A stretch of DNA of 64,000 bases from Agrococcus terreus (lineage in GTDB: Bacteria > Actinomycetota > Actinomycetes > Actinomycetales > Microbacteriaceae): positions 1,798,001 through 1,862,000 of the forward strand of contig NZ_BMLM01000001.1 of NCBI RefSeq assembly GCF_014645235.1, written 5' to 3'. A program made the translations under genes and the position numbers. Positions 441-20,415 of this stretch are shown here, piece after piece (position 1 is the stretch's first letter; every line of letters begins with the position of its first letter). The notes below the pieces were generated by a model. It saw only the letters and a list, made by a program, of their open reading frames with translations. It did no database searches and was not told where the DNA came from.

Positions 441-443
441 TCG

Positions 444-480
444 TGGTGGATCTGGGGGGACTCGAACCCCCGACCCCCTG
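444..480 (-). repeat. Distal attachment site: 37-bp copy of the tRNA-Ala 3' end
   Basis: These 37 bases are identical to 20340-20376, which cover the encoded CCA, acceptor 3' strand, T arm, variable region and part of the anticodon-stem 3' strand of the intact tRNA-Ala(GGC) gene. Identity stops abruptly at 481, where the sequence no longer resembles a tRNA. The fragment cannot encode a tRNA. This is the classic footprint of tyrosine-integrase insertion into a tRNA 3' end, with this copy at the end of the element away from the integrase. Confidence 0.92.
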
Positions 481-1195
481 TCTGGGTGCCTTGTCTCAAT
501 TTCCGCTTCTTTCCTCTGATCTGGGAACCCGTTCCGTCCCGCTCAGTCCCACGCTAGCCCTGTCGAGCCCCTTTCAGCCCCTTTCAAAGTGGCGGGGTTT
601 GTGGCGGGCTGGTTCTGCGGCAAGACGCGCCTCGACCCTCCCGCTCGATCCCTCACACCGCCCGTTCGAGCCCGTTCAAAGTGGACACATTTCTGGACAC
701 CCGCGCGCGCACTCGAAGGGAAAGCCACGAGCTCGAGCCACAGATCAGGCATCGCAAGTGCTGGCCGGGCCGGCTGGAACCTTGGAGCGGCCGATCCTCG
801 TGGCTTGTCGGTGACGAGCTCAATGAACTCCTTCAGAGCCGCCTCCAACGAGAGAGCGAACCGGGGTGGCCTCCACCATCGCGAGCCAACGCGGCGCGAT
901 GCCCCGCGAGGCGCCCGCCACGAGGATCCTCTTGTCATCCAGTCCCCCATGAGTAGCCCGCCGTCGTTGACGCGTAGGGCGACAGCTCGGCCGGGAGCCT
1001 CCGCGGCAGGAGGACCTTTGCCCAACGGCCCTGAGTGGCAGCTTCTTGAAGTTCGAGGGTCGACGGCGGTAAGCATCGATCCGGAGGACCTTCAGCGTCC
1101 TTGATCGCGGCGACGGGGTGCTGGAGCTGATGGCGGGCACACCGGCTCGTTCAAGCTTATCGGCTCGACCTTCAGCTGGCGGAAGCGATCGATGG
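481..1195. other. Island left end without a confident gene
   Basis: Apart from the repeats at 566-700 I see no intact gene. Two overlapping minus-strand frames (about 820-1272 and 543-1076) give short protein-like stretches such as LKVLRIDAYRRRPSNFKKLP in one and GRAVALRVNDGGLLMGDW in the other. Together they could be a frameshifted relic of one gene, but no family is recognisable. The 19-nt stretch at 682-700 recurs in similar form at 18283-18301. Confidence 0.4.
566..686. repeat. Paired direct repeats near the island left end, possible recombinase arm sites
   Basis: AGCCCCTTTC occurs twice in tandem (566-575, 576-585) followed by AAAGTGG. A parallel block at about 657-685 has two CCCGTTC units followed again by AAAGTGG. 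The two blocks sit about 90 and 180 bp inside the distal attachment site. Position and repeat structure would suit arm-type sites of a tyrosine integrase, but no matching block was recognised next to the integrase end, so the role is inference. Confidence 0.4.
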
Positions 1196-2815
1196 TCAGG
1201 ACGCGAGATCGCCGCCTGATAGCGAGACACGACCAAGGAACCTAGACCGGGCGTCGCTGATCGAATCAGCATTCATCCAGACGCGTCCTTCGCCGTCCCA
1301 TCGAGCGCCGCGCACCACTAGGCGTCCGCCCGAGAGCAATTTGGTGCGGTGCAGCGTGACGTGCCCTCCTGAATCAGCGTTCAGAACCGAGACATTAACT
1401 ATGCCCCCCTCTGCAAGGCCGCCTCGCAGCGACAAGAGCCCTCTTGCTTCAACCTGCGCGGCAGTAATAAGCATCGTGCTCGACTCCCCTGCCCGCCAAT
1501 GATCGATATCCAACCGCCCACGAGCGCTGACACGTGGTTTACCTACCTCCACGTGTGCCTGGTCCTGCAACCTCAATCCCCTGAGATCCACGAACCCGCG
1601 AACGCTAGGGCTTCCGATCAGTACCGATGCGCGGTCGCATGCCCGCGCCCCGCTAGCGACTAACCGGCCCTGCGACGTCACTACAGCTCGATTTATCACC
1701 AATTCTGCGTCATCTCGAAGGATCAGTCCTTTCGCCACTAACTCGCCACCTGCAGAGATAGTGGGACCCCCCAGCAATAGGTCACTGTTTCCCTGGAGAA
1801 CCGCATCTGAAAGAATCAGTCGACCGTTTCGCGAGACGTCGACTCCGACAGCAGTCATCCGCGCATCGTTGCGCAACTGCGCCTCCTGCAGGTGCACTTC
1901 GCCGCCGTCTAGCACCGAAGCGCCGTTCAAACTCAGTACGGAGTCGTCGGCGACTCTGATACCCGGGAGAAGAAGCCGCCCATGCGCAAGCACCTCGATG
2001 CGCTCGAGATTCAGCTTAGTTGAGCCCTCGCAACGAATCCTGGAGAGATTGACGGTGTAGTCGATCCTGAGGCCTGTGAGGTTGAAATGCAGCCCTGCCC
2101 ACAGGGGTCCGCCCTCGCCGCTATCAGTGAGGTTCGTGCGAATCTGTTCGAAACCCGCGACGCGGACCTGACGCTCGAGAAGGGCGCTCGCTTCATCATC
2201 GACCCTCGGCGCGGCCCGCAGATAGCCGCAGAGCACATCGACACATAGCTGCGCCTCTCTCGAGTTTTCCCGAGCTTTCCACTCCGAAACTAGGCCCGCT
2301 AGGAGGAACAGGCCTGTCATGCGCTTCGTTGCCGATGCGTCGGATGCCAGCAACTCGACCGCCGTCACCAGCCGAGCGCGAAGGACGCTTTCCGCATCCG
2401 CTTCCCGCCGGTCTCTCATCTCCCGCAGCCGACTGGCCTCCTTGTCACGGTCCAAGTGGTACAAGCGCTGTTGTACGAGCGAACGAGCTCGGTCGCGGTC
2501 CGCCGCCCGCAGTTCTTCGCCATGCCGAGCACCGCTGAGTGCTATTCCGGCTATCGCGATGACTCCGCCCAGGGAGAAGAGGACCACCTGCGCCGCTGGC
2601 CACAGACTCGCTGCCCGCACGTCATCGCTGACATCTGGAAACCAGTTGTTCAACAACTGGTTTGGCACCACGACGAGGATCGAACCGCCCAAGACTATGA
2701 AGAGAACGGCTGCAATCGTGAAGCAGACGGCCCAGCGCGACCGCTTCCACCAACTTTCGTCGCTTGGCAAGAAATCCGCGTCATCATTCGCCGATTCATC
2801 CGTCCCAATGTCCAC
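1196..2815 (-). CDS. Two-TM membrane protein with C-terminal beta-solenoid repeats
   Basis: About 539 residues. Two membrane segments (roughly 28-50 and 72-94) are followed by a charged, Arg/Glu/Asp-rich helix (about 97-145). Next comes a module resembling the one that precedes pentapeptide repeats in actinobacterial membrane proteins (LVTAVELLASDASATKRM, then VDVLCGYLRAAP). Instead of canonical A(D/N)LXX pentapeptides, the C-terminal 300 residues form about ten units of 23-26 residues with alternating short strands around Gly (GGEVHL, NGRLILSD, GGELVAKG, QGRLVASG, RGRLDIDH), which suggests a beta-solenoid. GTG at 2815 is preferred because GGTAGG lies about 9 nt upstream; a TTG at 2824 abuts that motif. 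GC is visibly lower than in flanking genes, which suggests transfer. The function is unknown. Confidence 0.72.
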   Translation of the reverse strand: MDIGTDESANDDADFLPSDESWWKRSRWAVCFTIAAVLFIVLGGSILVVVPNQLLNNWFPDVSDDVRAASLWPAAQVVLFSLGGVIAIAGIALSGARHGEELRAADRDRARSLVQQRLYHLDRDKEASRLREMRDRREADAESVLRARLVTAVELLASDASATKRMTGLFLLAGLVSEWKARENSREAQLCVDVLCGYLRAAPRVDDEASALLERQVRVAGFEQIRTNLTDSGEGGPLWAGLHFNLTGLRIDYTVNLSRIRCEGSTKLNLERIEVLAHGRLLLPGIRVADDSVLSLNGASVLDGGEVHLQEAQLRNDARMTAVGVDVSRNGRLILSDAVLQGNSDLLLGGPTISAGGELVAKGLILRDDAELVINRAVVTSQGRLVASGARACDRASVLIGSPSVRGFVDLRGLRLQDQAHVEVGKPRVSARGRLDIDHWRAGESSTMLITAAQVEARGLLSLRGGLAEGGIVNVSVLNADSGGHVTLHRTKLLSGGRLVVRGARWDGEGRVWMNADSISDARSRFLGRVSLSGGDLAS

Positions 2816-3163
2816 GTTGAACAACCTACCAAGGCGCCCAAACCGGATGAACAGAGCGCCGATCTACCGCGGTCGCAGGCGCGGCAGGGCGTTCCGACCG
2901 TGGGTCATCGCGGAGACGGATTGCTCCTCGTGAGCCGCACTCCTGGCGCGAGCTCAACTGAAGGTGCACGAGGCTCGCTCGGCGCCAGAAGCGGGGTCGG
3001 CGGTCACGCGAAAGGCATCACGACACAGGGGTGACGCAGAGCCGATCGCCATCTCGATCTGACTTCTCCCAACTGAGCGCCGCCACCCCTCATTGAGCCC
3101 AAATGCTGGGATTGCTGGGTTCGGAACCTCCGCGTCGCACCCCGCGATGGATACAGTCACGCT
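2816..3163. other. Intergenic stretch with no gene seen
   Basis: This holds the upstream regions of two genes that diverge from each other. Several frames are open but none has convincing protein composition or a good ribosome-binding site. No tRNA, clear palindrome or repeat was found. Confidence 0.5.
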
Positions 3164-3706
3164 GTGGACGAGGAGAAGTTGCGCTTCGAGCTCGAATTCT
3201 CCGCTCCGGAGGTCGCGAGCCTGACTGCGGCGGCCAGGCGCGCCAGCCGGCCGGTCGAGGAGTACGTGCGTTACGCCGCCTTGCGCGTGGCTGCTCAAGA
3301 CACCCGCCTCCCAGACGCTGGGAGGGCAACTTCCGAGGAGCCCCTCTCCCGACGCTCGCTTCGCCCGCTTCGATTCGAGGCGAGGATGCCGACACATGAG
3401 ATGGTGCGGCAACTCACCATCCACCTCGGCATCCGACTGTTAGCCCTGACGCTGGCCGCCGACGCTGAGGTCGTCGGCACATGGGCCGATGAGCAGAACC
3501 CTCCCCCGGAGCCGTACGAGCGCAGGCTGCAGGTGGCGCACGAGATATGGCAGCTCGTCTGCAGCGTGGAATCGCCGCCGACCACGCGGGCATGGTGGAT
3601 GGGGATGAAGGATGGGCTCGGCGACCTCTCACCTGCTGAAGCCATCGCACTCGATCGTTATCAAGACGTGCGCGCCGTGGCCCGGAACTTCTTGGAAGCC
3701 GGGTAG
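3164..3706 (+). CDS. DUF2384 (Xre/MbcA/ParS)-like antitoxin protein, apparently without a toxin partner
   Basis: 180 residues with a GTG start. The C-terminal half resembles the MbcA/ParS/Xre antitoxin family. LGIRLLALTLAADAEVVGTW followed by PYERRLQVAHEIW looks like the HTH plus linker. The end, RAWWMGMKDGLGDLSPAEAI and YQDVRAVARNF, matches the toxin-binding domain pattern (W-x-G-x4-LG-x-SP-x-EA, then V-x2-AAR-x-F). The N-terminal 60 residues (APEVASLTAAARRASRPVEE) look like an extra small helical domain. Such antitoxins normally pair with an adjacent RES-domain toxin; none is visible on either side. It could be an orphan antitoxin, a transcription regulator or an anti-toxin shield. Family assignment is from pattern only. 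Confidence 0.6.
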   Translation: MDEEKLRFELEFSAPEVASLTAAARRASRPVEEYVRYAALRVAAQDTRLPDAGRATSEEPLSRRSLRPLRFEARMPTHEMVRQLTIHLGIRLLALTLAADAEVVGTWADEQNPPPEPYERRLQVAHEIWQLVCSVESPPTTRAWWMGMKDGLGDLSPAEAIALDRYQDVRAVARNFLEAG

Positions 3707-4079: not shown

Positions 4080-4673
4080 GTGGCTGGACACAACAAAGGG
4101 CAAACCGTCGGCTACGTGCGCGTCTCCTCCGACGAGCAGAATGTCGCCCGCCAGCTCGAGGCCATTGGCACTGTCGATCGGACCTTCACCGACCGCATCT
4201 CCGGCAGGAGCCGCAGCACGCGTAGGGGGCTCTCGGAGATGACGGCCTACGTGCGTGATGGCGATACCGTCCTCGTCAGTTCGATGGACCGCTTGGCGCG
4301 ATCCCTGCGCGATCTCGATGACATCGTCTCCGAGCTCACTGGTCGCGGCGTCACGGTCCGCTTCCTCAAAGAGGCGCTGACCTTCTCTCCCACCGGCAAC
4401 GACCACTTCGCCCGCTTCCAGATGCAACTCATCGGCGCCGTCGCCGAACTCGAGCGCAATCTCATCCGTGAGCGTCAGGCGGAGGGCATAGCTATCGCGA
4501 AGACGCGAGGCGTCTATCGTCGGACGCCGAAGCTCACGCCCTCCGCGGTCGCGGCCGCGCAAGAGCGAATCGACCAGAAAGTGCCCCTGGCGGTGATCGC
4601 TCGCGAACTCGGGGTTTCTCGTCAGACGCTCTACACCGCACTCGGGCGCCAGCAATCATCGACTGGCCAGTAG
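4080..4673 (+). CDS. Serine recombinase, resolvase/invertase family
   Basis: 197 residues with a GTG start. The N-terminal catalytic domain begins with VGYVRVSSDEQNVARQLEA; Ser16 is at the nucleophile position. It continues with the resolvase hallmarks DRISGRSRSTRRGLSEM, VSSMDRLARSLRDLDDIV and QLIGAVAELERNLIRERQAEG (E helix). A C-terminal HTH follows (VPLAVIARELGVSRQTLYTAL). Length and domain order match Tn3-type resolvases and Hin/Pin invertases, not the large serine integrases. No transposase, terminal repeats or invertible segment is visible nearby. It may resolve island multimers or be a transposon relic. Confidence 0.9.
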   Translation: MAGHNKGQTVGYVRVSSDEQNVARQLEAIGTVDRTFTDRISGRSRSTRRGLSEMTAYVRDGDTVLVSSMDRLARSLRDLDDIVSELTGRGVTVRFLKEALTFSPTGNDHFARFQMQLIGAVAELERNLIRERQAEGIAIAKTRGVYRRTPKLTPSAVAAAQERIDQKVPLAVIARELGVSRQTLYTALGRQQSSTGQ

Positions 4674-4891: not shown

Positions 4892-6058
4892 TCACGAGGA
4901 TTGCTGGTCGCCGTCCAACCGCAGCCCACGCATGAGCAGCAGTGATGCGGCGACGAGCACCCCCACTGCCGCGAGCGAGGTTCCAGCACCGAACCCGGCG
5001 AGAGCCCCTGCGGCGGCCGGGATTGCGAGCTGGCTGAGGCGGTTGCCCGAGAGCCGCAGGGCGAGCGCGCGTCCGCGTTGGCCCTCAGGAGCTTGCTCGA
5101 CCAGCCACGACATCGTCAGCGGCTGACCGACACCGAGTCCGAGTCCGAGCACGACAGCGATTGCGACCAGTGCCCAGAACGGGAGCGGCGCCGCGAGAGC
5201 GATCAGTCCGATGGACGACACGATTAGGCTCGTGACCATCAAGCGGCCGCGACCGAGGCGCCGCGCGAGCATCCCGAGGAGCAAGCGAGATGCCATCGAC
5301 GCGACGGCGCGCGCTGCCAGTACGGCGCCGACTGCTGCCGCGCTCAGTCCCAGCTCAGCTCCGAGGGCGGGGACGTACACGACCGTCAAGTCGACTGCGG
5401 CGACGACGATGGCGCTGGTCGCAATCGCCCGTGCGACGCCTGGTGAGCGCAGCAGCATCCAGGCGGAAACACCTCCGTGCGCGTCGAGGCCCGAGTTCGC
5501 GAGGGATCGCCGCTCGATCGCGAACGTCGTGGGCATCAGCACGAGTGCGAGCACTCCGCCGATGATGAAGAGCAGCCTCGTGTCGGGGCGTACGCCGTCC
5601 CCGCCCAGGGTGAGCAGGAGGGGACCGATCGCCTGTCCGAGCGAGGCTGCGAACGTGTAGTAGCCGAAGAGCGAGTCGAGGCCGCCCGCCGAGGCTGAAC
5701 GCGCGACGACGGCCTGCTGGCCCACGATGCAGCCGAGGTGGCCGGCGCCGAGCAGCGCCGTGCCGACGAGGAGCCCGACGATGGCATGCCCCCACAGCGC
5801 GAGCGCGACGCAAGCGACGATCGCGAGCGCAGACCCTCCGAGCAGCGCGACCCGCTCGCCGCGACGGTCGACGAGTCGCCCGACCACGAGTGCGAGCAGC
5901 AGCGGAACGAGGGCGAAGGCTGCTCCGATCGCTCCGACCGAGACGGCGGGCGCGCCGAGGTCGAGCGCCGCGTAGCTCACCGCGGGGCGCACGAGGAATG
6001 CGATGACCTGGATCAGGAGAGAGTGCAGGAGCAGCGCGACCAATGATGCGCGCTTCAC
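4892..6058 (-). CDS. MFS transporter
   Basis: 388 residues, about twelve hydrophobic segments, with the MFS loop 2-3 signature near residue 60 (GRLVDRRGERVALLGGSAL). It starts at GTG with AGGAGG eight bases upstream. The second half contains AARAVASMASRLLLGMLARR and a conserved GLGLGVGQPL segment. It is the most distal gene of the minus-strand run that starts at the CitMHS gene (9665), 88 bp after the cupin-ABM gene, so it probably belongs to module A. The substrate and direction are unknown; import or export of a pathway metabolite is possible. Confidence 0.85.
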   Translation of the reverse strand: MKRASLVALLLHSLLIQVIAFLVRPAVSYAALDLGAPAVSVGAIGAAFALVPLLLALVVGRLVDRRGERVALLGGSALAIVACVALALWGHAIVGLLVGTALLGAGHLGCIVGQQAVVARSASAGGLDSLFGYYTFAASLGQAIGPLLLTLGGDGVRPDTRLLFIIGGVLALVLMPTTFAIERRSLANSGLDAHGGVSAWMLLRSPGVARAIATSAIVVAAVDLTVVYVPALGAELGLSAAAVGAVLAARAVASMASRLLLGMLARRLGRGRLMVTSLIVSSIGLIALAAPLPFWALVAIAVVLGLGLGVGQPLTMSWLVEQAPEGQRGRALALRLSGNRLSQLAIPAAAGALAGFGAGTSLAAVGVLVAASLLLMRGLRLDGDQQSS

Positions 6059-6146: not shown

Positions 6147-6887
6147 TCAGAACGCGGTCAGCACGTTCTGCACGTGCTCGACCCGGGGTAGCGACTCCAC
6201 GTGCGGCCCGATGAGGGCGCGCCACTGCTGGAAATCCTCCGACGAGCGGAAGTCGACGGTGTGGTCCTCGATGTGCTCCCACGAGACGAAGAGGCGGTAG
6301 CGCCGGGGCTCCTCGACCGAACGCTCGAGGGTGAGGGTACGGGCGCCGTCCGCGCGCTGGAACAGCGGCGCGGCCTCGCGCACGGCCTGCTCGAAGCCGG
6401 CCTCGTGCCCCTCCTTGACGTCGACCTCAGCGATCTCGGTGACACGCGTGCGCTCCCCGGCTTCCGAGCCGGCGCTGCGCTCCGCGTCGATGCGGCCGGT
6501 CTCGCCGGTCTCGATCATAGTTCGCGTCGAGTCGACCGAGCCGTAGGTCCACAGGATCCGCATCTCCTCGGTGTCGGAGAGGTTCTCGAAGTGGTGCGGC
6601 ACGTTCGCGGGCACGAACGTCGTGTCGAAGGTATTCAGCTCGTGCCGCTCGCCGTCGATGTCGACGATCGCGCGGCCGAGGATGACCATGACGGACTCGG
6701 CGACGTTGTGCGAGTGGTGGCCGATCTGCGCGCCCGGCGCGAAGATCGTCATGCCGTTCAGGTACGTCGTCGCGCCGCGCTCGGACGTCACGAGCGGCAC
6801 CGTCTTGGCGCCGGCCCCGCGATCCTTCGACGGCAGGTCGTTCGGGCGGAGGACGTGGCTCGCCTGGGAGGAGATGGTCGTGGTCAC
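6147..6887 (-). CDS. Cupin plus antibiotic-biosynthesis-monooxygenase (ABM) fusion protein
   Basis: 246 residues. The N-terminal half is a single-domain cupin: the metal-site motif GAQIGHHSHNVAESVMVILG (about residues 52-71) is followed by the second motif FVPANVPHHFENL. The C-terminal half (about 145-246) is a dimeric alpha-beta-barrel ABM domain: VTEIAEVDVKEGHEAGFEQA, then YRLFVSWEHIEDH and FRSSEDFQQWRALIG. ABM proteins include cofactor-free monooxygenases and isomerases or simple scaffold proteins, so the reaction cannot be named. The GTG start overlaps the stop of the aldehyde dehydrogenase gene by 4 bp (GTGA), which indicates translational coupling. Confidence 0.82.
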   Translation of the reverse strand: MTTTISSQASHVLRPNDLPSKDRGAGAKTVPLVTSERGATTYLNGMTIFAPGAQIGHHSHNVAESVMVILGRAIVDIDGERHELNTFDTTFVPANVPHHFENLSDTEEMRILWTYGSVDSTRTMIETGETGRIDAERSAGSEAGERTRVTEIAEVDVKEGHEAGFEQAVREAAPLFQRADGARTLTLERSVEEPRRYRLFVSWEHIEDHTVDFRSSEDFQQWRALIGPHVESLPRVEHVQNVLTAF

Positions 6888-8257
6888 AGTGCGGGTCCGA
6901 TCCAGATGGTCTTCGCGTTCATGAACTCCCGGATGCCGAGGGCTCCGAGCTCGCGTCCGTAGCCGGACGCCTTGATGCCACCGAAGGGCAGTCGCGCGTC
7001 GGAGGCGACCATGCCGTTGATGAACACGGCTCCGGCGTCGATGTTGCGCGCGATGTCGCGGGCGGCCGCGACGTCGGCCGTCCAGATGGCCGCGCCGAGG
7101 CCGAACTCCGTCTGGTTGGCGAGGCTCACGGCCTCTTCGACGCCGTCGCAGCGGATGACGGCGGCGACGGGGCCGAAGGTCTCCTCGACGAAGGCCGTGT
7201 CGTCGGGCGACACCGAGTCGAGCAGCGTCGGCGCGTAGTAGGCGCCGTCGCCGGGAATCGGGGCGCCGCCGAGGACGAGCTCGGCGCCGCCGGCGGCGAG
7301 CGTCTCCTCGACCTGGCGGTGCAGGTCGTCGCGCAGGTTGCGACGGGCCATTGGGCCGATGGTCGTGCCCTCGACGAGCGGGTCGCCGACGGTGAGCGCC
7401 TGGATGCCTGCAGCGAATCGCGCGACGAACCGGTCCGCCACGGCCTCGTCGACGATGAAGCGCTTCGCATTCACGCAGCTCTGGCCGTTGTTGGTGAAGC
7501 GGGCCTTCACCGCGACCGCGGCAGCGGCTTCGACATCGGCGTCGGCGAGCACGATGAACGGGTCCGAGCCTCCGAGCTCGAGCACCTGCTTCTTGAGCGC
7601 CTTGCCCGCCTGCGAGGCGACCAGACGACCGACCTCGGTCGAGCCGGTGAGCGTGACCGCGGCGATTCGGTCGTCCTCGATGAGCGACTGCACGCGCGAC
7701 GCCTCAATGAGGAGCGTCGTGAAGAGTCCCGACGGGGCGCCCGCTTCGGTGACGGCCCGCTCGAGCGCGATCGCGCACTGCGGCACGTTGTTGGCGTGCT
7801 TCAGGATCGCGCCGTTGCCCGCGGCCAGCGCGGGCGCCAGGAACCGGACGAGCTGCCAGTAGGGGTAGTTCCACGGCATCACGGCGAGCACGACGCCCAG
7901 GGGGTCGTAGACGACGCCGGACTCCGCCGCGTTCGAGGCGATCTCCTCGTCGGCGATGTAGGTGCGCGCGTGCTCGGCGTAGTGGTCGAGCGTGACGGCG
8001 CACTTCTCGATCTCGGCGCGCGCCTCGGCGAGGGGCTTGCCCATCTCGAGGGTGATGAGGCGTGCGTGCTGCTCGGCATCGCGGCGGAGGATGGCGGCGA
8101 TCGACCGGAGCAGCGCGCTGCGCTCGTCGTCGTTGGAGCGTCGCCACTCGCGCTGCGCGGCGACGGCGGCGTCGAGCGCGGCGTCGACCGCTTCGGGCGT
8201 GTGGGCATCGAACGTGGCGAGGATCTCGCCGTTCGCGGGATTGATCGAAGTGATCAC
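6884..8257 (-). CDS. NAD(P)-dependent aldehyde dehydrogenase, succinate-semialdehyde type
   Basis: 457 residues, the full length of the family. Catalytic residues are visible: Cys261 in FTNNGQSCVNAKRF and the general base Glu227 in LELGGSDPFIV, with the cofactor loop VTLTGSTEVGR and the oxyanion region PWNYPYWQ. It resembles the short GabD/Sad branch that oxidises semialdehydes such as succinate semialdehyde. GTG start with AAGGA about six bases upstream. It lies 16 bp after the CitMHS gene and overlaps the next gene by 4 bp. It probably oxidises an aldehyde or semialdehyde formed by this pathway; the substrate is not determined. Confidence 0.88.
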   Translation of the reverse strand: MITSINPANGEILATFDAHTPEAVDAALDAAVAAQREWRRSNDDERSALLRSIAAILRRDAEQHARLITLEMGKPLAEARAEIEKCAVTLDHYAEHARTYIADEEIASNAAESGVVYDPLGVVLAVMPWNYPYWQLVRFLAPALAAGNGAILKHANNVPQCAIALERAVTEAGAPSGLFTTLLIEASRVQSLIEDDRIAAVTLTGSTEVGRLVASQAGKALKKQVLELGGSDPFIVLADADVEAAAAVAVKARFTNNGQSCVNAKRFIVDEAVADRFVARFAAGIQALTVGDPLVEGTTIGPMARRNLRDDLHRQVEETLAAGGAELVLGGAPIPGDGAYYAPTLLDSVSPDDTAFVEETFGPVAAVIRCDGVEEAVSLANQTEFGLGAAIWTADVAAARDIARNIDAGAVFINGMVASDARLPFGGIKASGYGRELGALGIREFMNAKTIWIGPAL

Positions 8258-11913: not shown

Positions 11914-11944
11914 GATGCCCCCGGCCACCCAGGGCGGGGGCATC
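11914..11944. terminator. Bidirectional hairpin between convergent genes
   Basis: GATGCCCCC (11914-11922) pairs with GGGGGCATC (11936-11944) across a 13-nt loop. It lies just after the stop of the plus-strand Ldh2 gene and touches the stop of the minus-strand dehydrogenase, so it can end both transcripts and separates module A from module B. Confidence 0.65.
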
Positions 11945-13037
11945 AGGCTTCGCCGCCACGCGACGGAGGCGGCCCCTCGAGGCGTGCCAGGACCGCGTCG
12001 GTGAACGCGTCCGTGCCGAGGGCCCCTCCGATGTCGCCGGTGCGGGTCGACGGATCGGCGATCGCCGCGTCGATGGCGGTCTCGATGGCGCGCGCAGCCT
12101 CGGTCAGGTCTGGCCGCTCACCGCGCCGGCCGAGCCACTCGAGGAGCATCGCCGCCGAGAGGATCAACGACGTCGGATTGGCGATGCCTCGCCCAGCGAT
12201 GTCCGGCGCGGACCCATGCTGGGCCTGCGCCGCAGCGATGCCGTCGCCCGTGTTGAGCGACCCGCCGAGGCCGAGGCTCCCGGAGAGCTCCGAAGCCTCG
12301 TCCGAGAGGATGTCGCCGAACATGTTGGTCGTCACGATCACGTCGAAGTCGTCGGGCCGCTTCACGAGGGCAGCGGCGGCAGCGTCGACGATGAGCTCGC
12401 TCAGCCGCACGTCCGGATACTCCTCCGCGACCTTCCGGACCTCACGGAGGAACAGCCCGTCCGAGAGCTTCACCACGTTCGCCTTGTGCACCGCGGTGAC
12501 ATGCTGACGGCGGTCACGGGCGAGCTCGAACGCCGCTCGGGCGACGCGGTTCGAGGCGGCAGCGGTGATCTTCCGAATGCTGAAGGCGCTGTCCGCGTCC
12601 GGCATGAACTCGCCTGAGCCGGCATGCATGTTGCGGTCGGAGTAGAAGCCCTCGGTGTTCTCGCGCACGATGACGAGATCCATCGGTCGCCGGAGGATCG
12701 ACAGCTCCCCCCGAGACCGGCACGGTCGGATGTTCGCGTACAGGCCGAACCTGGTGCGCAGCTCCCCTGACGGGTTGATGCCGCCCTCGGCTCGCGGCGG
12801 GTATTCGTAGTGCGAGACCGGGCCGAGCAGCACCCCGTCGACCGCCAGCACGCGCTCGAGCACCGCATCGGGCAGGGTCGTGCCCTGCGCCGCGAGGCTC
12901 GCGAGACCGATGTCGGCGTGCTCGAACGAGAGACCGAGATCGAAGGCCCGGTCGACGTGATCGAGGACTCGAAGCGTGGCATCGGTGATCTCGGGCCCGA
13001 TGCCGTCGCCCGGCAGCACGAGGATGGTCGTGGTCAT
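11943..13037 (-). CDS. Isocitrate/isopropylmalate-type decarboxylating dehydrogenase
   Basis: 364 residues from the ATG at 13037. It has the N-terminal LVLPGDGIGPEI motif, the substrate-loop region RENTEGFYSDRN (IDH-like, unlike the LeuB version), the catalytic HKANVVKLSDGLF Lys, VTTNMFGDILSDEASELSGSLG with the metal-binding Asp residues, and ADIAGRGIANPTSLILSAAMLLEWLG. Family members oxidise and decarboxylate isocitrate, isopropylmalate, homoisocitrate, D-malate or tartrate. Placement with TctABC argues for a catabolic 2-hydroxy di- or tricarboxylate and not leucine synthesis. It is last in the module B operon, and its ATG overlaps the preceding stop (ATGA). Confidence 0.88.
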   Translation of the reverse strand: MTTTILVLPGDGIGPEITDATLRVLDHVDRAFDLGLSFEHADIGLASLAAQGTTLPDAVLERVLAVDGVLLGPVSHYEYPPRAEGGINPSGELRTRFGLYANIRPCRSRGELSILRRPMDLVIVRENTEGFYSDRNMHAGSGEFMPDADSAFSIRKITAAASNRVARAAFELARDRRQHVTAVHKANVVKLSDGLFLREVRKVAEEYPDVRLSELIVDAAAAALVKRPDDFDVIVTTNMFGDILSDEASELSGSLGLGGSLNTGDGIAAAQAQHGSAPDIAGRGIANPTSLILSAAMLLEWLGRRGERPDLTEAARAIETAIDAAIADPSTRTGDIGGALGTDAFTDAVLARLEGPPPSRGGEA

Positions 13038-14119
13038 GGTGTGGCTCCTGACACGGATGCGACGATGCTCCAGCCGGCAGGCAGCGCGACACCGAGGTCG
13101 TCCGCCAGCGTGCCGAGCTCCGCGATGGTCTGCTCGGGCAGCTCCACGCCGCCCGCGGCACGAGCGGCCGCTTCGGCGAGGTCCTCGAGCTCCCCGGGGT
13201 GGTGGATCCTGTCGTGGCCGACTGCGAGGGGCGTCTCCCTGACCTCGCGCACCATGGCGTCGACGCGCGAGTCGTAGTCCTCGACCGGACCCAGCGCCGC
13301 GACGTCGATCGCGATCATCAGGTGGCCGGCGCCGCTGCTGCCGTCGGGCATATACGGGCCGATGACGCCCGTGCCGACGGCGCTCCCCGTCAGGGCGCCC
13401 GAGAGCAGGTCCATCATGAAGCTGATCGCGTAGCCCTTGTGGCCGGCCATCGGCATGATGGTGCCTGCGATCCCGGCGACCGCATCGGTCGTCGGCGCAC
13501 CTTCGCTGTCGAGCGCCCAGTGCGACGGGATCGGCTCGCCACGCTGCTTCGCGAGGTACAGCTTGCCTCGCGCGACCGCCGTGTTGGCGATGTCGAGGGC
13601 GACCACCGAGTCGCGCCAGGGGCCGGCGATGGACCAGGGATTCGTCCCGACCCGCTTCTCCTTGCCGCCCCATGGCGCCATGGCGGGAGACGCATTGGTG
13701 GTGAGGAGCGCGACGCAGCCCTCGCGTGCCGCACGGCGCGTGAAGTACATCGCGGTGCCGAAGTGGTTGGAGTTGCGCACGCCGACCGCTCCGATCCCGT
13801 GCACGCGCGCACGTTCGACCGCGAGGTCGCGAGCGCGCTCGGCCATCACCTGCCCGAGACCGTCCTGCCCGTCGAGCAGCACGAGCGCGCCCGTGTCGAT
13901 GAGGACCTCGCCGGCGGCGGTCGCCTTGGTCGCACCGCTCCTCAGGCGTGCGACGTACCACGGCAGACGCAGCAGCCCGTGCGAGTGGTGCCCCCACAGC
14001 TCAGCCTGGACGAGGCTGTCGGCGACGAGCGTCGCCGAGGCCCCAGGGACGCCGACCGCCCGAAGGATGTCGGAGGCGAGCCGGAGCAGCGCATCCGGCT
14101 CGAAGCGGCGCGCGCTCAC
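13034..14119 (-). CDS. Ldh2/MDH-type NAD(P)-dependent 2-hydroxyacid dehydrogenase, copy 2
   Basis: 361 residues from the GTG at 14119. That start overlaps the tctA stop by 4 bp (GTGA); the upstream open frame lies within tctA and is ignored. It carries the same landmarks as the 10837 gene: AELWGHHSHGLLRLPWY, VGVRNSNHFGTAMYF, TTNASPAMAPWGG and MAGHKGYAISFMMDLLSGAL. The two copies are clearly paralogous over their full length. It is translationally coupled to the IDH-like gene, which suggests successive oxidations of one substrate or its stereoisomers. The exact substrate is unknown. Confidence 0.9.
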   Translation of the reverse strand: MSARRFEPDALLRLASDILRAVGVPGASATLVADSLVQAELWGHHSHGLLRLPWYVARLRSGATKATAAGEVLIDTGALVLLDGQDGLGQVMAERARDLAVERARVHGIGAVGVRNSNHFGTAMYFTRRAAREGCVALLTTNASPAMAPWGGKEKRVGTNPWSIAGPWRDSVVALDIANTAVARGKLYLAKQRGEPIPSHWALDSEGAPTTDAVAGIAGTIMPMAGHKGYAISFMMDLLSGALTGSAVGTGVIGPYMPDGSSGAGHLMIAIDVAALGPVEDYDSRVDAMVREVRETPLAVGHDRIHHPGELEDLAEAAARAAGGVELPEQTIAELGTLADDLGVALPAGWSIVASVSGATP

Positions 14120-15729
14120 CGCTCGCGCCGCTCGTCGGCGCGGTCGTCCCGGTCGGCCTGGTCGCGCTCGTCGTCGTGAACCGCAGGGATCATCGCGGTC
14201 GCGAACCCGCGATCGATGTCGTCGGCGCCCACAGCCTCGGCCGTGCGCCGCTCCCATCGCTTGAGGAAGCGAGGGACGATCGCGACGAGGATGACGAGCA
14301 CGTAGCAGACGATCGAGAAGGGAGATGCGACGAGCGCCGACGCGTCGCCGTCCGAGATCGCGAGCGCGCGGCGGAGCTGCTGCTCCGCGATGGGACCGAG
14401 GATCACCCCGATGATGAGGGGCGCGATCGGGAAGCCGTACTGGCGCATGAAGTACCCGAGGATGCCGATGACGAGGAGCGTGAACACGTCGAAGATCGAG
14501 CCGCTCACGGCGTAAGCGCCGAGCAGTGCGAACGTGACGATGCTCGCGTACAGGTACGGCGTCGGGATCTTCAGCACCTTGGCCCAGACCCCGGCGAGCG
14601 GCAGGTTGAGCACGAGCAGCATGAAGTTGCCGATGAGGAGCGCTGCGATGAGCCCCCAGACGAGGTCCGGCTCAGTGCTGAGCAGGCGCGGTCCCGGCTG
14701 GATGCCGTACTGCTGGAAGGCGATGAGGATGACGCCGGCGGTCGCCGACGTGGGAACGCCGAGCGCGAGCAGCGGCATCAGTGCACCGGCGGCGTTCGCG
14801 TTGTTGGCCGCCTCCGGCCCGGCGACGCCCTCGATCGCGCCCTTGCCGAACTCGTCCTTCCGCTTCGACAGCCGGCGTTCGGCCGCATAGGACAGGAAGG
14901 TCGGCACCTCCGAGCCCCCGACCGGCACGGCGCCGAGGGGCCAGCCGATCGCGGTCCCGCGCAGCCACGCAGGCCACGAGCGTCGCCAGTCGTCGCGAGT
15001 CATCCAGAACTGCCCCTTGGGGAGGTCCATGACCTGGAGCTTGCCCTTGCGCATGCGGGCGGCGAGGTAGATCGCCTCACCCATGGCGAAGAGGGCGACG
15101 ATGACCACGACGCTGTCGATGCCGTCGAGCAGGCGGGGCACGCCGAAGGTGTACCGCGCGACTCCGCTCTGCGAATCGAACCCGATGAGCCCGATGACGA
15201 GGCCCACCGCGACGGCGGCGAAGCCACGTGCCGCGGAAGCGCCGAGCAGCGCACCGACGGTCATGAAAGCGACGACGATGAGTGCCAGGTAGTCAGCGGG
15301 GCCGAGCAGGATCGCCACGCGGACGACATAGGGCGCGACGAAGGCGAGCAGGACGGTGGCGATCGTGCCGGCGATGAAGGAGCCGATGGCTGCGGTCGCG
15401 AGCGCTGACGCCGCTCGACCGGAGCGTGCCATCTTGTTGCCGTCGATCGCGGTCATCATCGAGCCGGACTCGCCGGGCGTGTTGAGCAGGATCGACGTGG
15501 TCGACCCGCCGTACATCGCGCCGTAGTAGATGCCGGCGAAGAGGATGAGGGCCGCTTCCGGAGCGACCGTGTAGGTGAGCGGCAGCAGGAGCGCGATGGT
15601 GAGCGCGGGTCCGATGCCGGGCAGCACTCCGACGAAGGTGCCGGCGACGACGCCGACGAACGCCCAGAGCAGGTTGATGGGGGTCAGCGCGAGGGCGAAG
15701 CCGTCGATGAGCCCCTGGATGCCTTCCAT
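14116..15729 (-). CDS. tctA: Tripartite tricarboxylate transporter, large permease TctA
   Basis: 537 residues, about eleven to twelve membrane segments, matching the usual 500-residue TctA. Hallmarks are [20 protein letters not shown] and the repeated [21 protein letters not shown] near residue 75-95, plus the second-half counterpart [36 protein letters not shown]. The C-terminal tail is unusually charged, rich in Asp/Arg and probably cytoplasmic. It forms the transport channel with TctB, fed by the binding protein TctC. The gene starts 10 bp after tctB, and its stop overlaps the next start. Confidence 0.93.
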
Positions 15730-15739: not shown

Positions 15740-16231
15740 TCAGAGGATCCCCGCGAAGACGCCCTCGGGCAGGTAGATGCCCAGCGTCTTGGCGAAGAAG
15801 AGGTAGACGAGCACCGGCAGCACGATCGAGACGAGCGCCATCGCCCACCACCGTCGTGCGCCGAACGCGAGGAGGAGGCCGAAGAACGCGAGCGGCGCCG
15901 CGATCAGGTAGCCGAGGGGGTCGAGCAGGACCGCGAATCCGATCACGGACGCCAGGAGGATCGCGACCCGCACGGCGTTGAAGCGCTGCGTCGGGTCGGT
16001 CAGCTCCGACTCCTCCGGCGCGACGGAGTGACCTCGGAACAGCTCGATGATCGTCCATCCCGCGGCCAGGATCAGGAGGCCGCCGGCGAAGTGGGGCATG
16101 AACCGAGGCCCGACGTTGCTCGACGCGAGCGGAATCGGGATGAGGGCGGCCTCGATGACGACGAAGATGCCGAGGGCGAGGAGGAGCCCGCTGAACGCGA
16201 GCTCCCCCTTGCTGTGCGCGGTCAGCTTCAC
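15740..16231 (-). CDS. tctB: Tripartite tricarboxylate transporter, small permease TctB
   Basis: 163 residues from the GTG at 16231, which overlaps the tctC stop by 4 bp. There are four predicted membrane segments: LAFSGLLLALGIFVVIEAAL, GGLLILAAGWTIIEL, VAILLASVIGFAVLL plus LIAAPLAFFGLLLAF, and MALVSIVLPVLVYLFFAKTL. The sequence FMPHFAGGLL near the first loop (GPRFMP) is typical of TctB. It is weakly conserved in sequence, but position between tctC and tctA and topology make the call secure. Confidence 0.9.
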   Translation of the reverse strand: MKLTAHSKGELAFSGLLLALGIFVVIEAALIPIPLASSNVGPRFMPHFAGGLLILAAGWTIIELFRGHSVAPEESELTDPTQRFNAVRVAILLASVIGFAVLLDPLGYLIAAPLAFFGLLLAFGARRWWAMALVSIVLPVLVYLFFAKTLGIYLPEGVFAGIL

Positions 16232-17244
16232 ACCAGACCCAGGTCCTCGAGCAGCTGACGGGTGGACTCCGTCTGCTCCTGCAGCTCGGCGGCGAACTCC
16301 TCGCTGTCGAGGTACTCGTCGGACCATCCGTTGGTCGTGCGGATCTCGTTCCAGGCGTCCGACTCCACGAGCGTCGCGAAGCCCTCCTCGAGCGTCGCGA
16401 GGTCCTCGTCCGAGATGCCCGGGGGCGCGAAGATGCCTCGCCAGTTCACCAGGGCCGAGTCGGGGTACCCGGCGTCGGCGATGCTCGGCAGGTCCGGCGC
16501 CACTTCGAGGGGCTCGTCCGAAGCGGTGGCGAGGACGCGCAGCTCGCCGGTCTCGATCGAGTCGGCGAACTCGCCGTACCCGGAGATGCCGGCAGCGACC
16601 TGGTTGCCGAGCAGGGCGATGAGTGCCTCGCCGCCGCCGTCGAACGTGACGAAGTTCACATCGGTCGCCTCGAGGCCCGCATCCTGGGCGAGCAGCCCGC
16701 CCCACATGTGGTCGTAGCCGCCCTGGTTGCCGATGGCGATCGGATTGTCGCCGGGCGACTCCGCGAGCGCGTCGAGGAAGTCCTGCAGCGTCTCGTAGGG
16801 GCTCGCGTCGGGGACCACGATGACGTCGTACTCGCCGATGAGGCGGGCCACCGGCGTGAGCTCCGTGAGGTCGTTCGGTGCGTCGTTCGTGATGCTCGCG
16901 CCGACGAGCGACAGGCCACCGATCATGAGGTCGTCCGGCGAGCTCATCCCGACGAACTCCGCGAGCGCGACCGTCCCGCCGGCACCTTCGGTGTTCGTGA
17001 CCTGCACCCGCTGGGCGAGGCGCTCTGAGGTGAGCACCTGCTCGATCGCTCGCGCGGTCTGGTCGTACCCGCTGCCGGCACCCGAGGGTGCGTCGATCGA
17101 GAGCGCGCCGAGGACGGGCCCTTCCTCGGGTGCGCCGGAGCTGCCGGTCCCGCCCGCAGAGCAGCCCGTTGCGAGCAGTCCGACGGCGACGAGTGTGCCG
17201 ACCGCCACGGCCGTGCCGCGTCGCTTGCGAATGTTCATCTTCAT
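16228..17244 (-). CDS. tctC: Tripartite tricarboxylate transporter substrate-binding lipoprotein TctC
   Basis: 338 residues from the ATG at 17244, which has GGAG five bases upstream; the frame is open further, but that lies in the promoter region. A lipoprotein signal (KRRGT...LATGCSAG) anchors it outside the membrane. The mature domain follows the TctC pattern: SIDAPSGAGSGYDQTARAIE, VTNTEGAGGTVALAEF, GNQGGYDHMWGGLLAQ, and LPSIADAGYPDSALVNWRGI. These proteins bind di- and tricarboxylates and also other organic acids, so the ligand is open. First gene of module B, divergent from the GntR gene at 17384. Confidence 0.92.
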   Translation of the reverse strand: MKMNIRKRRGTAVAVGTLVAVGLLATGCSAGGTGSSGAPEEGPVLGALSIDAPSGAGSGYDQTARAIEQVLTSERLAQRVQVTNTEGAGGTVALAEFVGMSSPDDLMIGGLSLVGASITNDAPNDLTELTPVARLIGEYDVIVVPDASPYETLQDFLDALAESPGDNPIAIGNQGGYDHMWGGLLAQDAGLEATDVNFVTFDGGGEALIALLGNQVAAGISGYGEFADSIETGELRVLATASDEPLEVAPDLPSIADAGYPDSALVNWRGIFAPPGISDEDLATLEEGFATLVESDAWNEIRTTNGWSDEYLDSEEFAAELQEQTESTRQLLEDLGLV

Positions 17245-17383: not shown

Positions 17384-18034
17384 ATGCGCGGGTCAGGAAG
17401 CCAGTTCGCCTACGACGAAGTACGGCGGCAGATCGTCACCCTCGAGCTGCGCCCGGGCGCGAGGCTCTTCGAAGAGGCGCTCGCCGCCTCGCTCGGAGTC
17501 AGCCGGACCCCTCTGCGAGAGGCGCTTCGCCAGCTCGAGTCCGAGCGTCTGCTCGAACGCCTGCCTGCCGGCGGCCTGTCCGTGCCGGTGCTCGACGCGC
17601 GCGAGATCTCAGAGCTGTACGACTGCCGCGCCGCTCTCGAGGGTCTGATGGCAGGCGAGGCGGCGCGCGTGGCGACCACCCCCGACATCGACGACCTGCA
17701 GCGACTCGTCGCGAGGAACGAAGCGCTCGTGCACCTGCCCGAGGACGCGATGCTGTCCGGCAAGGCGATCCACAGCGCGATCTCCCGGATCGCGGACAAC
17801 GCCTGGTCTCTGCGGCTCCACGAGCAGGTCGCGGGTCAGATGGAGCGCTACCGCCGCTACACCAATCAGAGCGCCGACCGCAGAGATCGCGCGCTCGAGG
17901 AGCACCGCGGCATCGTCGCTGCGATCGCGACTGCCGATCCTTCTCGTGCGGCACTGCTCGCACACGAGCACGTCACGGCTGCCCGCGACGAAGTGCTTCG
18001 GGTCATAGACAGCGTCGGCCTCTCCGTGAGTTGA
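17384..18034 (+). CDS. GntR-family (FCD type) transcriptional regulator of module B
   Basis: 216 residues from the ATG at 17384. The winged helix contains AYDEVRRQIVTLELRPGARL and ASLGVSRTPLREALRQLESE, then the wing RLPAGGLSVPV. The FCD domain has ELYDCRAALEGLMAGEAAR, and histidines at GKAIHSAISRIADN and LEEHRGIVAAI that are in the usual metal-ligand positions. The gene diverges from tctC. It is a different FCD subgroup from the 9751 regulator, judged by length and sequence. It probably represses the tct operon until a carboxylate ligand binds. Confidence 0.88.
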   Translation: MRGSGSQFAYDEVRRQIVTLELRPGARLFEEALAASLGVSRTPLREALRQLESERLLERLPAGGLSVPVLDAREISELYDCRAALEGLMAGEAARVATTPDIDDLQRLVARNEALVHLPEDAMLSGKAIHSAISRIADNAWSLRLHEQVAGQMERYRRYTNQSADRRDRALEEHRGIVAAIATADPSRAALLAHEHVTAARDEVLRVIDSVGLSVS

Positions 18035-18315
18035 TGCGGGCGAGCGGCGATCGCGGACCACTGACAGCGGCTATGAGCGAGCTGCGCCGCCTCGACCTAG
18101 GGATCAGGTCTAGCTGCGGGTCGCCTCATCCGCGGCATCGCGTCACACCGACGCTATGCGTGAGTGAACGGCGCCTGCGACAGACTCCTGCGTACTCGCG
18201 CCGACAGCCCATCTGAAGCGTCGGGTGGACGACCCGGGACGTGCCGGGACGCCGACGCGGAGTCGTGCCGCCCGATCGTTCTTGGACGCGTTCCTGGACA
18301 CTCACGACAACGACG

Positions 18316-18343
18316 AAGGCCACCTGCTCTCGCAGGTGGCCTT
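18316..18343 (-). terminator. Hairpin downstream of the tRNA-Arg fragment
   Basis: AAGGCCACCTGC pairs with GCAGGTGGCCTT (12 bp, 4-nt loop). Read on the minus strand it follows the 3' end of the tRNA-Arg fragment by about 18 bp and is followed by a T-rich stretch, as in a tRNA terminator. It seems to have been carried along with the fragment. Confidence 0.65.
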
Positions 18344-18360: not shown

Positions 18361-18399
18361 CGCGCGCCCGGAGGGACTCGAACCCCCAACCTTCTGATC
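18361..18399 (-). repeat. 3' fragment of a tRNA-Arg(ACG) gene, relic attachment site
   Basis: Read on the minus strand this gives the anticodon-stem 3' side (GGATCAGA), variable loop, a full T arm (GGGGGTTCGAGTCCC) and the acceptor strand CCGGGCGC of a tRNA-Arg, most like the ACG isoacceptor. The 5' half is absent and the match stops within the anticodon. The breakpoint is where integrases typically cut tRNA targets. It therefore marks a former integration in tRNA-Arg, distinct from the present tRNA-Ala site. No intact tRNA-Arg is in the window. Confidence 0.72.
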
Positions 18400-18684
18400 C
18401 GGGCTCAGAGCGCGGCTTACGCAATGTCCTGTTCGCGGTCCTAGATCGATTCGAACAGCCGGGCCATCGCTTCGGCGGCCCCCGAACGATGTCAGCCACG
18501 AGATTCCAGACGGCGAACGCGCCAAGGAGCCGCTCTATCGAGCGAGCTGATGGACTGGACTCTTCCTGAGCCAACTCGCAAGCGTGCGACGAGGCACGCC
18601 AATGGTTCACGCCAGCAACGGCCCCCAAGCCCGGCGCATAGAAACGGCACGATCTCGTCGATGGTCAGAGCGGCCCTGCTTGCC

Positions 18685-19920
18685 TCACGCACGACCTTCG
18701 TTTTGAGCCGGCAGGATGGTGTCGTTCAGAGAGCCAACCGGCTCGCCGAATAGCGAGTCGATGAGCGCCGCAGATGCTTCCCCAACCACCGGCGCGGGCG
18801 TCACGTAGTGGCGCTCTGTCGTCAGCACGGAAGCGTGACCGAGTTGTTCCGTCGCGCGGAAGACGCCGGCTTCGTTCGCGATGAGTGTGGCCAGGGTGCG
18901 CCGGAGCAACTGCGCAGTCACCTGTCCATGCCGGATACCGGCTCGCTCCAGCGGCTCGCTCCACTCGTCGCGGAAGTTGCGCAGTATTCGGCGTACGTTG
19001 CCGGGCCGGCTCCACCCACCGCGTCGATTCGGGAACACCGGAGAACGACTCGCGCTGTCATCGACGTACGGCCTGAGCGCCGTCACCGCAAGCAATGGCA
19101 ACACGATCGTGCGCTGCTGGCGCGCGTGCTTGGGGTGCGGCTGCCAAACCGGCTCGCCCTTCTCGCCGTCCGTCAGCGTCGCCGTGAGGTGGAGCGTTGG
19201 CGTGGAGTTGTCGAGGCGCAGGTCGCAGTGGCGGAGTGCAAGCAGCTCTCCGATCCGGAGACCGACGGCGAGCAATACGTCGAGCATGTCCGCGACCCGT
19301 GGATCGGGTTTGGGACCGGGCTTGTCGCGCTCGCTGAGCCATTCGCGGTACGCCCCACTCAGGATCGCCGCCTGTTCCGGGGCCAGCGTGTAGATCTCCG
19401 GCTTCGGGAGTCTAGGAGCCGCGAACGCCGCAAGCGGATTCGTCTTCCGCGCGTCAATCCGGACGGCATCGGCGATCATCGCCTTCAGGGTCCTATGCAC
19501 TCGTCGGGCCAGCGGCGCGTCGCGCTTCGCGAGCGTGCGAATGATGGTCTCGCACCGGGCGATCGTCAGTTCGCTCAGTCGCAGATGACCGAAGTGCTCG
19601 ACGACGTGCTTCGCATCGGTGGTGTAGTTCTCAAGCGTGCCGGCAGCGAGGGGGCCGAGCGAGCGCTTGCGGTCGAGCCACCAGAGCGCCAGTTCGTCGA
19701 CGGTGGAGTGGTCGGAGACATAGGCGTCTTCCCGCGTGAGGAATGCCGTCCGAGCGCGCAGCGCCGCCTCTGCTGACTCCGGGGTATCCCCGATCGCGCT
19801 CGGCCGGCGGTCGCGGCCGTCCAGCTCGCGAAAGTGCCCGCGCGCCTGATAGCGACCGTCCGGCAGCGGAGTGATGCTGACCACGCCCCAGGTGCCCGGC
19901 TCGAGTCGTGGCCTAGGCAC
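18685..19920 (-). CDS. int: Tyrosine recombinase (site-specific integrase)
   Basis: 411 residues from the GTG at 19920, which overlaps the excisionase gene by 8 bp. The order is an AP2-like N-terminal DNA-binding segment (ITPLPDGRYQARGHFRELDG), a SAM-like core-binding domain (about 70-170), and a catalytic domain. Catalytic residues visible are Arg222 (LLAVGLRIGELLALR), Arg340 (QLLRRT), His362 (QLGHAS) and Tyr372 (ERHYV). The usual first His of the HxxR box is replaced by Gln337. It is adjacent to the intact tRNA-Ala, so it is the likely enzyme that inserts and excises the island at the 37-bp repeats. Confidence 0.92.
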   Translation of the reverse strand: MPRPRLEPGTWGVVSITPLPDGRYQARGHFRELDGRDRRPSAIGDTPESAEAALRARTAFLTREDAYVSDHSTVDELALWWLDRKRSLGPLAAGTLENYTTDAKHVVEHFGHLRLSELTIARCETIIRTLAKRDAPLARRVHRTLKAMIADAVRIDARKTNPLAAFAAPRLPKPEIYTLAPEQAAILSGAYREWLSERDKPGPKPDPRVADMLDVLLAVGLRIGELLALRHCDLRLDNSTPTLHLTATLTDGEKGEPVWQPHPKHARQQRTIVLPLLAVTALRPYVDDSASRSPVFPNRRGGWSRPGNVRRILRNFRDEWSEPLERAGIRHGQVTAQLLRRTLATLIANEAGVFRATEQLGHASVLTTERHYVTPAPVVGEASAALIDSLFGEPVGSLNDTILPAQNEGRA

Positions 19921-20110
19921 GATTCGCCTCGATCCAGGCGACCACGTCGCCGGCGTAGTACCGCACGTGCCTTCCCAGCCGCACAAAGCGAGGGCCGGTC
20001 CCACGCTGCCGGTGGTACTGGAGCGTCTTGACGCTGATGTAGAGGGCAGCAGCTACGTCGCGTTCGCGTAGCAGGACGCCAGGCGAGAGCTGGAGCAGGT
20101 CGATCGGCAC
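19913..20110 (-). CDS. xis: Excisionase / AlpA-like MerR-type helix-turn-helix protein
   Basis: 65 residues from the GTG at 20110, with GGAG eight bases upstream. It shows the small winged-helix excisionase pattern: LLRERDVAAALYISVKTLQY (HTH), then RQRGTGPRFVRLGRHVRYYA (wing) and DVVAWIEANRA. The frame is open much further upstream, but that runs into the tRNA and is ignored. It is coupled to the integrase by an 8-bp overlap, the common order for actinobacterial integrative elements. It probably directs excision and may repress the integrase promoter. Confidence 0.85.
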   Translation of the reverse strand: MPIDLLQLSPGVLLRERDVAAALYISVKTLQYHRQRGTGPRFVRLGRHVRYYAGDVVAWIEANRA

Positions 20111-20315
20111 GAGGAGGACTCCGGTGGGAGCGGATGGGGCGCTGGTCACGCTAACCGCATAGGCGGTGCGCGCCAGGCCGCTCCGGCGAAGTCGAGGAGC
20201 TACCGGTAGTGGAAGGGCGTGGCCGGGACGTACCGGGACATCAGCGCGGGACCGCGCGAAACCTGCCGAGAATCCTGACTTCAGGCCGTCGCACGAGCAG
20301 GTGCTCTCAGGGAAA

Positions 20316-20337
20316 AACCCCCGGTCAGACGGGGGTT
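20316..20337 (-). terminator. Rho-independent terminator of tRNA-Ala, on the island side
   Basis: AACCCCCG pairs with CGGGGGTT around a 6-nt loop; on the minus strand the stem is followed by five T residues. It lies 3 bp beyond the encoded CCA of tRNA-Ala. Because it is inside the island boundary, the element appears to have brought its own terminator. Confidence 0.8.
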
Positions 20338-20342
20338 CTTGG

Positions 20343-20415
20343 TGGATCTGGGGGGACTCGAACCCCCGACCCCCTGCATGCCATGCAGGTGCGCTACCAG
20401 CTGCGCCACAGACCC
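20343..20415 (-). tRNA. tRNA-Ala(GGC)
   Basis: A 73-nt cloverleaf on the minus strand. The acceptor GGGTCTG pairs with CAGATCC, with one G-U pair; the discriminator is A and CCA is encoded (20340-20342). The anticodon arm is CCTGC-ATGGCAT-GCAGG with anticodon GGC, and the T arm carries GGTTCGAGTCC. The gene is intact although the island is inserted at its 3' end, since the attachment repeat restores the 3' half. Confidence 0.97.

Follow-up and report, generated by a model that had tools for sequence, protein, structure and literature searches.

What has entered the tRNA-Ala(GGC) gene of Agrococcus terreus, and how did its cargo come to be joined to the genes that integrate it? The window analysed here is a stretch of 64 kb (64,000 nucleotides; contig NZ_BMLM01000001.1, positions 1,798,001 to 1,862,000 of the forward strand), and all positions below are counted from its first letter. 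We find that positions 444–20415 are very probably a genomic island of 19.9 kb, one of a family of elements that integrate site-specifically in Agrococcus. Elements of this kind are known; this one is above average in how much of its assembly can be read from its own sequence.

The island, its ends and its sister elements

The ends are marked by an exact 37-bp repeat (444–480 and 20340–20376), the longest stretch common to the two attachment site (att) copies. It occurs twice in the window and in none of 100 dinucleotide shuffles. The right copy, the attR core, forms the 3′ end (with CCA) of the intact tRNA-Ala(GGC) gene (20340–20415, minus strand), the sole tRNA found in the window by ARAGORN, with an Rfam score of 64.7 bits. 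The left copy, attL, lies on the same strand. The GC content is 68.0% in the island versus 73.6% and 74.4% in the left and right flanks.

A tyrosine recombinase, the integrase (18685–20004, minus strand; its true start maybe nearer 19926), has its open reading frame (ORF) edge at 335 bp from the tRNA and matches Pfam Phage_integrase (E 7.8e-11) and phrog_1 (7.4e-41). It is accompanied by an excisionase-like helix-turn-helix (HTH) protein (19913–20113, minus strand) that matches Pfam HTH_17 (5.8e-8) and phrog_66 (1.3e-6). Tyrosine integrases exchange strands within a common tRNA core, by which the tRNA is restored and its terminator replaced. Here the integrase would recombine two copies of the tRNA-Ala(GGC) 3′ half, one carried by the element and one in the chromosome, and the HTH protein would direct excision. 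Direct repeats near both ends may serve as the arm sites of the integrase. The one at the right end is CCGGGACGTACCGGGAC (20223–20239, plus strand), a motif present also in L068 and L167, and the left end (481–701) carries another, resembling an integrase arm site, at 682–700.

The initial annotation had placed an island in this tRNA gene with both ends resolved, citing a perfect 37-bp repeat and an integrase and excisionase beside the intact tRNA. These observations were confirmed by the exact match and by the Pfam and PHROGs assignments, and the sister islands with homologous ends add to them. A repeat scattered over many unrelated places, named there as evidence to the contrary, was not what we saw; the three other places found in the genome are imperfect, at 85–88% identity over 32–34 bases.

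The nearest sister is found in Agrococcus sp. Marseille-P2731 (NZ_FPEG01000002.1; loci L068, L079 and L080), in the same tRNA and with an integrase 93% identical. It was the sole relative in a contig set of 84,980 species, a search that detects close relatives only. Its right end matches window 18492–20415 at 88% identity, and the left ends are also homologous (441–534 at 78% and 661–701 at 85%; 661–700 at 82.5% in G011). Unlike ours, the Marseille-P2731 island has its attL 27.4 kb away from its right end, its interior DNA is unrelated, its cargo is of the defence type, and a further int and xis gene survive in it as remnants (L079:12100–12576). The sole blastn match beyond the att regions is 64 bp inside our integrase gene, to those remnants. 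Because of them, this island also looks composite. Judged by sequence, the two are the same element with different cargo.

Another sister, in G016, matches ours at 93% over 19192–20451 and at the att core, and one more interior match of 26 bp is taken as chance. Its integrase match is confined to residues 6–272 and has one stop inside. Integrase matches at E 1e-6 or better occur in 9 of the 24 genus genomes. Six genomes (our own, G003, G011, G016, G018 and G022) have an integrase of at least 44% identity (44–100%) at 335–407 bp from tRNA-Ala(GGC). The weaker matches, in G005, G007, G015 and as extra copies in G016, sit away from this tRNA with two exceptions, a 62-residue fragment about 3 kb from tRNA-Ala in G015 and a match inside the island of G022, which is by coordinates the same genome as G317. 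Across 299 family genomes, integrase identity outside these elements is at most 36% among the matches listed. No report of this island family was found among the papers listed from an open-access library, in one case the best 10 of 58.

The cargo differs in kind. Four sister islands (G003, G016, G018 and G317) have both ends on one contig; in G011 the tRNA with the integrase and the att copies are on separate contigs, and the defence count covers the other four. From these four, 17 chosen ORFs, not all, were run through PADLOC; 14 matched a model, some weakly or partially, and each island had defence matches. They are GajA (1.1e-185) and GajB (1.7e-188) of Gabija in G018, IetA (5.2e-73) and IetS (2e-34) of Iet in G016, a type I restriction enzyme (1.6e-97) in G003, and PDC-S25 (3.8e-147), HamC (4.7e-89), HmaA (9.4e-89), HmaB (8.1e-54) and PDC-M09B (4.3e-153), Hma/SIR2-like, in G317. 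PADLOC recognised no defence cargo among the 18 proteins of our island, save a weak match of the excisionase-like protein to mad1 (8.6e-5).

One type of integration module is thus seen at one tRNA across the genus with exchangeable cargo, defence-type in four islands and metabolic in one. Since the module and the tRNA are of one kind and the cargo is exchangeable, cargo swapping becomes open to study in a fixed int/att background. This cargo-swapping family, like the internal tRNA-Arg remnant described below, goes beyond what the initial annotation saw.

Terminators and the unoccupied site

Integration would leave the tRNA intact but supply it with a terminator from the element; the original one would be pushed to the far end of the island. 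A hairpin is found at each place. The stem-loop left of attL (404–440, minus strand), the probable original terminator, folds with −36.6 kcal/mol (z −6.48) and none of 200 shuffles is as good. The island-side hairpin beside the tRNA (20313–20339, minus strand), the terminator it now uses in our reading, has −15.8 kcal/mol (z −2.07) with 9 of 200 shuffles as good. In five sister elements a similar hairpin, AACCCCCG...CGGGGGTT, stands on the island side directly after CCA, as at our right end.

The closest relative by flank is G019, with 97% identity over 143 bp in the tRNA and right flank and 85% in the YibE/F protein, and no related integrase was found in it at E 1e-6. G019 shows the unoccupied site, where a strong hairpin directly follows CCA, contiguous with the intact tRNA-Ala. 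This stretch is 81% identical over 85 bp to window 396–480, core included, and the left flank is comparable only up to the hairpin. The exchange of terminators is well supported, because the G019 hairpin follows CCA at the same place and five sisters share the island-side hairpin. In outline this bears out the earlier proposal that the island terminator replaced the original one, which probably survives at 404–440. Similar C-rich hairpins also occur in some relatives without the element (G009, G015 and G017), which calls for caution on the exchange. Seven unoccupied relatives (G002, G004, G006, G010, G012, G013 and G020) differ in sequence after tRNA-Ala.

The initial annotation had further predicted that the kdpE-like gene, the hairpin and the tRNA would be contiguous in a relative lacking the island. 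The hairpin and the tRNA are so in G019; the kdpE-like gene is not beside them. Its end lies far from tRNA-Ala in all eight relatives that match it over at least 77 bases (G007, G008, G009, G014, G016, G017, G019 and G022), and about 11 kb differs in G019 between the tRNA and the next common gene on the left side. Three points count against the island as we read it: the left flank, with kdp, does not adjoin tRNA-Ala in relatives; the unoccupied site comes from a species other than the host's; and excision and transfer are predictions.

Around this site, tRNA-Ala(GGC) stands between the kdp potassium operon on the left (L066; KdpA and KdpD by Pfam) and TrkH/TrkA on the right (window 21939–24003), and the relatives compared do not share the kdp side. 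A palindrome-like sequence of the type TGTGATGA..CGCG..GACAT stands immediately after the 3′ ends of tRNA-Ala and tRNA-Arg in several Agrococcus genomes (G002, G006 and G013; L134 and L125), and perhaps represents insertion-element ends. In G317 (L079:16461–16527), attL together with the sequence on its left resembles our right end, element-borne terminator and all, with 95.5% identity over 67 bp counting the core, as though an earlier element once occupied that site.

The tRNA-Arg(ACG) scar inside the island

About 2 kb inside the right end of the island lies a second att-like scar, an orphan 40-bp 3′ end of tRNA-Arg(ACG) (18362–18401, minus strand). It is exact to the genome's own tRNA-Arg(ACG) (L067:5374–5413), which is intact on another contig. 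A terminator-like hairpin goes with it (18313–18340, minus strand; z −5.21), and similar hairpins stand behind tRNA-Arg(ACG) in relatives. The tRNA-Arg(ACG) region is matched in 22 of the 24 genus genomes, the match entering the hairpin in 14, our own included, at 76–83%. The stretch from hairpin to tRNA in the scar differs from all nine full-length copies compared, of which ARAGORN confirmed five, and this makes a recent copy of a host site improbable. The remnant is matched in 10 of 398 family genomes at E 1e-16, our own included, with 79–94% identity over 54–110 bases. Its donor was found neither there nor among phages and plasmids, whose matches fell on the tRNA part in the best 20 of 131 and the best 20 of 39 records.

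Two arm-like direct repeats lie left of the scar core (18234–18250 and 18283–18301, plus strand), and the one other copy of each pattern in the window is at an island end. CCGGGAC-x3-CCGGGAC is present exactly twice in the 64 kb, at 18234 and 20223, and TGGAC-x6-CTGGACAC likewise at 18283 and 682. In shuffled windows the means are 0.025 and 0.01, respectively, and two copies appeared in 0 of 200. The Marseille-P2731 and G016 elements likewise carry the first pattern at their right ends; the left ends of the Marseille-P2731 and G011 elements have, by eye, a similar but non-identical version of the second. Right of the scar is a decayed and truncated gene (18492–18685, minus strand), related to the one that lies downstream of int in sisters; the gene is open in Marseille-P2731 and frameshifted and cut here. 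The homology to the Marseille-P2731 island (L068), which covers the right end of ours, reaches leftward as far as 18492, inside this gene. Its product may be HTH/ParS-like, and Pfam gives it no label.

On the simplest reading, a second att-bearing element brought foreign cargo and integrase module together at 18.2–18.7 kb. To us the chances are about even that the tRNA-Arg(ACG) remnant, with the decayed gene beside it, marks such a fusion, and the motif order does not fix the exact event. A fuller history can be proposed only tentatively and is rather doubtful: a mostly defence-carrying vehicle would have become a metabolic island by fusing with an element of the same integrase subfamily from tRNA-Arg(ACG), the att remnant, arm repeats and truncated gene recording the fusion point, and tRNA-Arg orphans elsewhere, in G016 near tRNA-Lys and in G003, pointing to a recurrent route of assembly. 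If so, the scar preserves a readable trace of the joining of cargo to the module.

Several observations speak against a fusion of this form. Both arm-like motifs lie left of the scar core, an arrangement expected of neither a simple left end nor a simple right end. The alignment of the scar's left side with the island's right end is reached by 11 of 1000 shuffles, not far from the 39 of 1000 for the reverse-complement control. The shuffle numbers for the repeat patterns are flattering, because the patterns were built after inspection of the sequence. The alignment of the left side with the island's left end is reached by 79 of 1000 shuffles, and the local alignment test gave nothing for the scar's right side (1000 and 726 of 1000 shuffles). 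The scar as a simple right end was dropped, with both motifs on one side of the core.

The scar could instead come from two independent islands, a metabolic element of tRNA-Arg(ACG) and the tRNA-Ala element, with separate machinery and joined by a chance deletion. Such a history accounts for an orphan tRNA-Arg 3′ end that keeps its hairpin, and G016 offers a parallel, a similar orphan (32 bp exact) 6.7 kb from tRNA-Lys with a related integrase adjoining. However, the arm-like motifs at the scar resemble the ends of the tRNA-Ala element, hinting at the same integrase subfamily, and Pfam recognised only one tyrosine integrase in the island. We regard two independent islands as possible and somewhat unlikely.

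Of the other orphan ends, the one in G003 is 42 bp exact, and G009 has a second tRNA-Arg copy 8.6 kb from its intact tRNA-Arg. The G016 stretch beside tRNA-Lys(CTT), with the 30% related integrase and the orphan inside, is L183:5407–12206. A 1-kb stretch, transposase-like by eye, is 88% identical between the G016 tRNA-Ala island (L167:8127–9115) and the part of G003 that holds its tRNA-Arg orphan (L169:9586–10543).

Cargo, mobility and known systems

Left of the scar, the cargo looks like a cluster for the uptake and oxidation of organic acids (carboxylates), as its protein families would have it. On the minus strand are an MFS transporter (4892–6058; Pfam 4.2e-36), a protein with cupin and ABM domains (6147–6887; Pfam), an aldehyde dehydrogenase (6884–8257; Pfam Aldedh 4.8e-141) and a CitMHS transporter (8274–9665; NCBIfam citMHS 467.7 bits, cut-off 259.7). 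A GntR/FCD regulator (9751–10467, plus strand; Pfam) and an ABM domain protein (10429–10770, minus strand; Pfam) precede an Ldh_2 dehydrogenase (10837–11901, plus strand; Pfam 1.5e-109), an Iso_dh family dehydrogenase (11943–13058, minus strand; Pfam 5.3e-98) and a second Ldh_2 dehydrogenase (13034–14173, minus strand; Pfam 1.3e-112). TctA (14116–15729; Pfam 6.2e-151), TctB (15740–16261; 3.4e-22) and TctC (16228–17238; 1.8e-29) follow on the minus strand, and then another GntR/FCD regulator (17384–18034, plus strand; Pfam). The two Ldh_2 genes are inverted paralogues flanking the Iso_dh gene and form a 509-nt inverted repeat of 75% identity (11175–11683 and 13291–13799).

No substrate is claimed, because citMHS alone passed its cut-off when 10 island proteins were run against NCBIfam. 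Naming one was rejected, as the aldehyde dehydrogenase (among the best 25 of 45 families), Ldh_2 and Iso_dh proteins scored below the cut-offs of the families listed. CitMHS at E 1e-10 occurs in our own genome and in none of the 23 others of the genus; at E 1e-40 it occurs in 69 of 398 family genomes, our own included. Two other family genomes have partly similar gene sets, G356 at 52–72% and G049 at 48–71% identity. For the host, these genes suggest that it has acquired a means of using a carboxylic acid.

The left part of the island encodes a protein of 542 aa (1196–2824, minus strand) and another (3164–3706, plus strand), neither with a family match in Pfam, PADLOC or PHROGs. By tblastn the latter has relatives in three sister islands, at 49% over 178 aa in G003 and, over 100 aa each, at 43% in G018 and 44% in G317; in the Marseille-P2731 island the relative (44%, 100 residues) is downstream of int. 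Next to it is a serine recombinase of the resolvase/invertase type (4080–4673, plus strand; Pfam Resolvase 2.9e-34, phrog_125 1.5e-52).

Among the 18 island proteins Pfam recognised no relaxase, Rep or FtsK/TraB domain and none for replication or phage structure, so a helper is probably needed and transfer would depend on it. Of the five proteins run against PHROGs, three matched; the families were those of recombinases, DNA binding and excision, plus one whose function is unknown, and none was structural or for packaging. Plasmid relatives of the integrase are limited to three records at 28–32% identity.

The integrase, xis and att could also be what a temperate phage left at tRNA-Ala(GGC) around captured genes, and the nearest phage integrases (about 33%) do come from Arthrobacter phages, beside immunity repressors. 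Yet a prophage was rejected on the absence of structural genes from the Pfam and PHROGs matches, a pattern search found no integrase relative in viral contigs, and the sister islands keep the same type of int/xis/tRNA end with defence cargo, which together make a phage remnant highly improbable. Less probable still is an actinomycete integrative and conjugative element (AICE) or an element mobilizable in its own right, which the tyrosine integrase, xis and GntR regulators might suggest and which was rejected since Pfam found no Rep, FtsK/TraB or relaxase domain in the 18 island proteins and the GntR genes adjoin catabolic genes; the two proteins without a family match (1196–2824 and 3164–3706) leave it a small chance.

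The preferred reading, a site-specific integrating island with exchangeable cargo, can be set beside known systems. By its gene list, the element of PMC11706625 shares with ours a tyrosine integrase, GntR regulators and an actinobacterial host, whereas ours is without a recognised RepSA, FtsK/SpoIIIE-type or Spd gene. The Pseudomonas islands I23, I44 and I55 are described as defence-carrying islands with a tyrosine integrase at tmRNA or tRNA genes, and a comparable island is moved there by a jumbo phage (PMC12595487). As far as that description goes, our family is like them in its tyrosine integrase, direct repeats, RNA-gene target and variable cargo, Gabija among it, without genes for autonomous transfer (PMC12595487). 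Ours differs in using tRNA-Ala(GGC) rather than tmRNA, in its actinobacterial host and in an xis-like HTH protein in place of AlpA, and the copy in A. terreus adds a metabolic cargo and a second tRNA scar.

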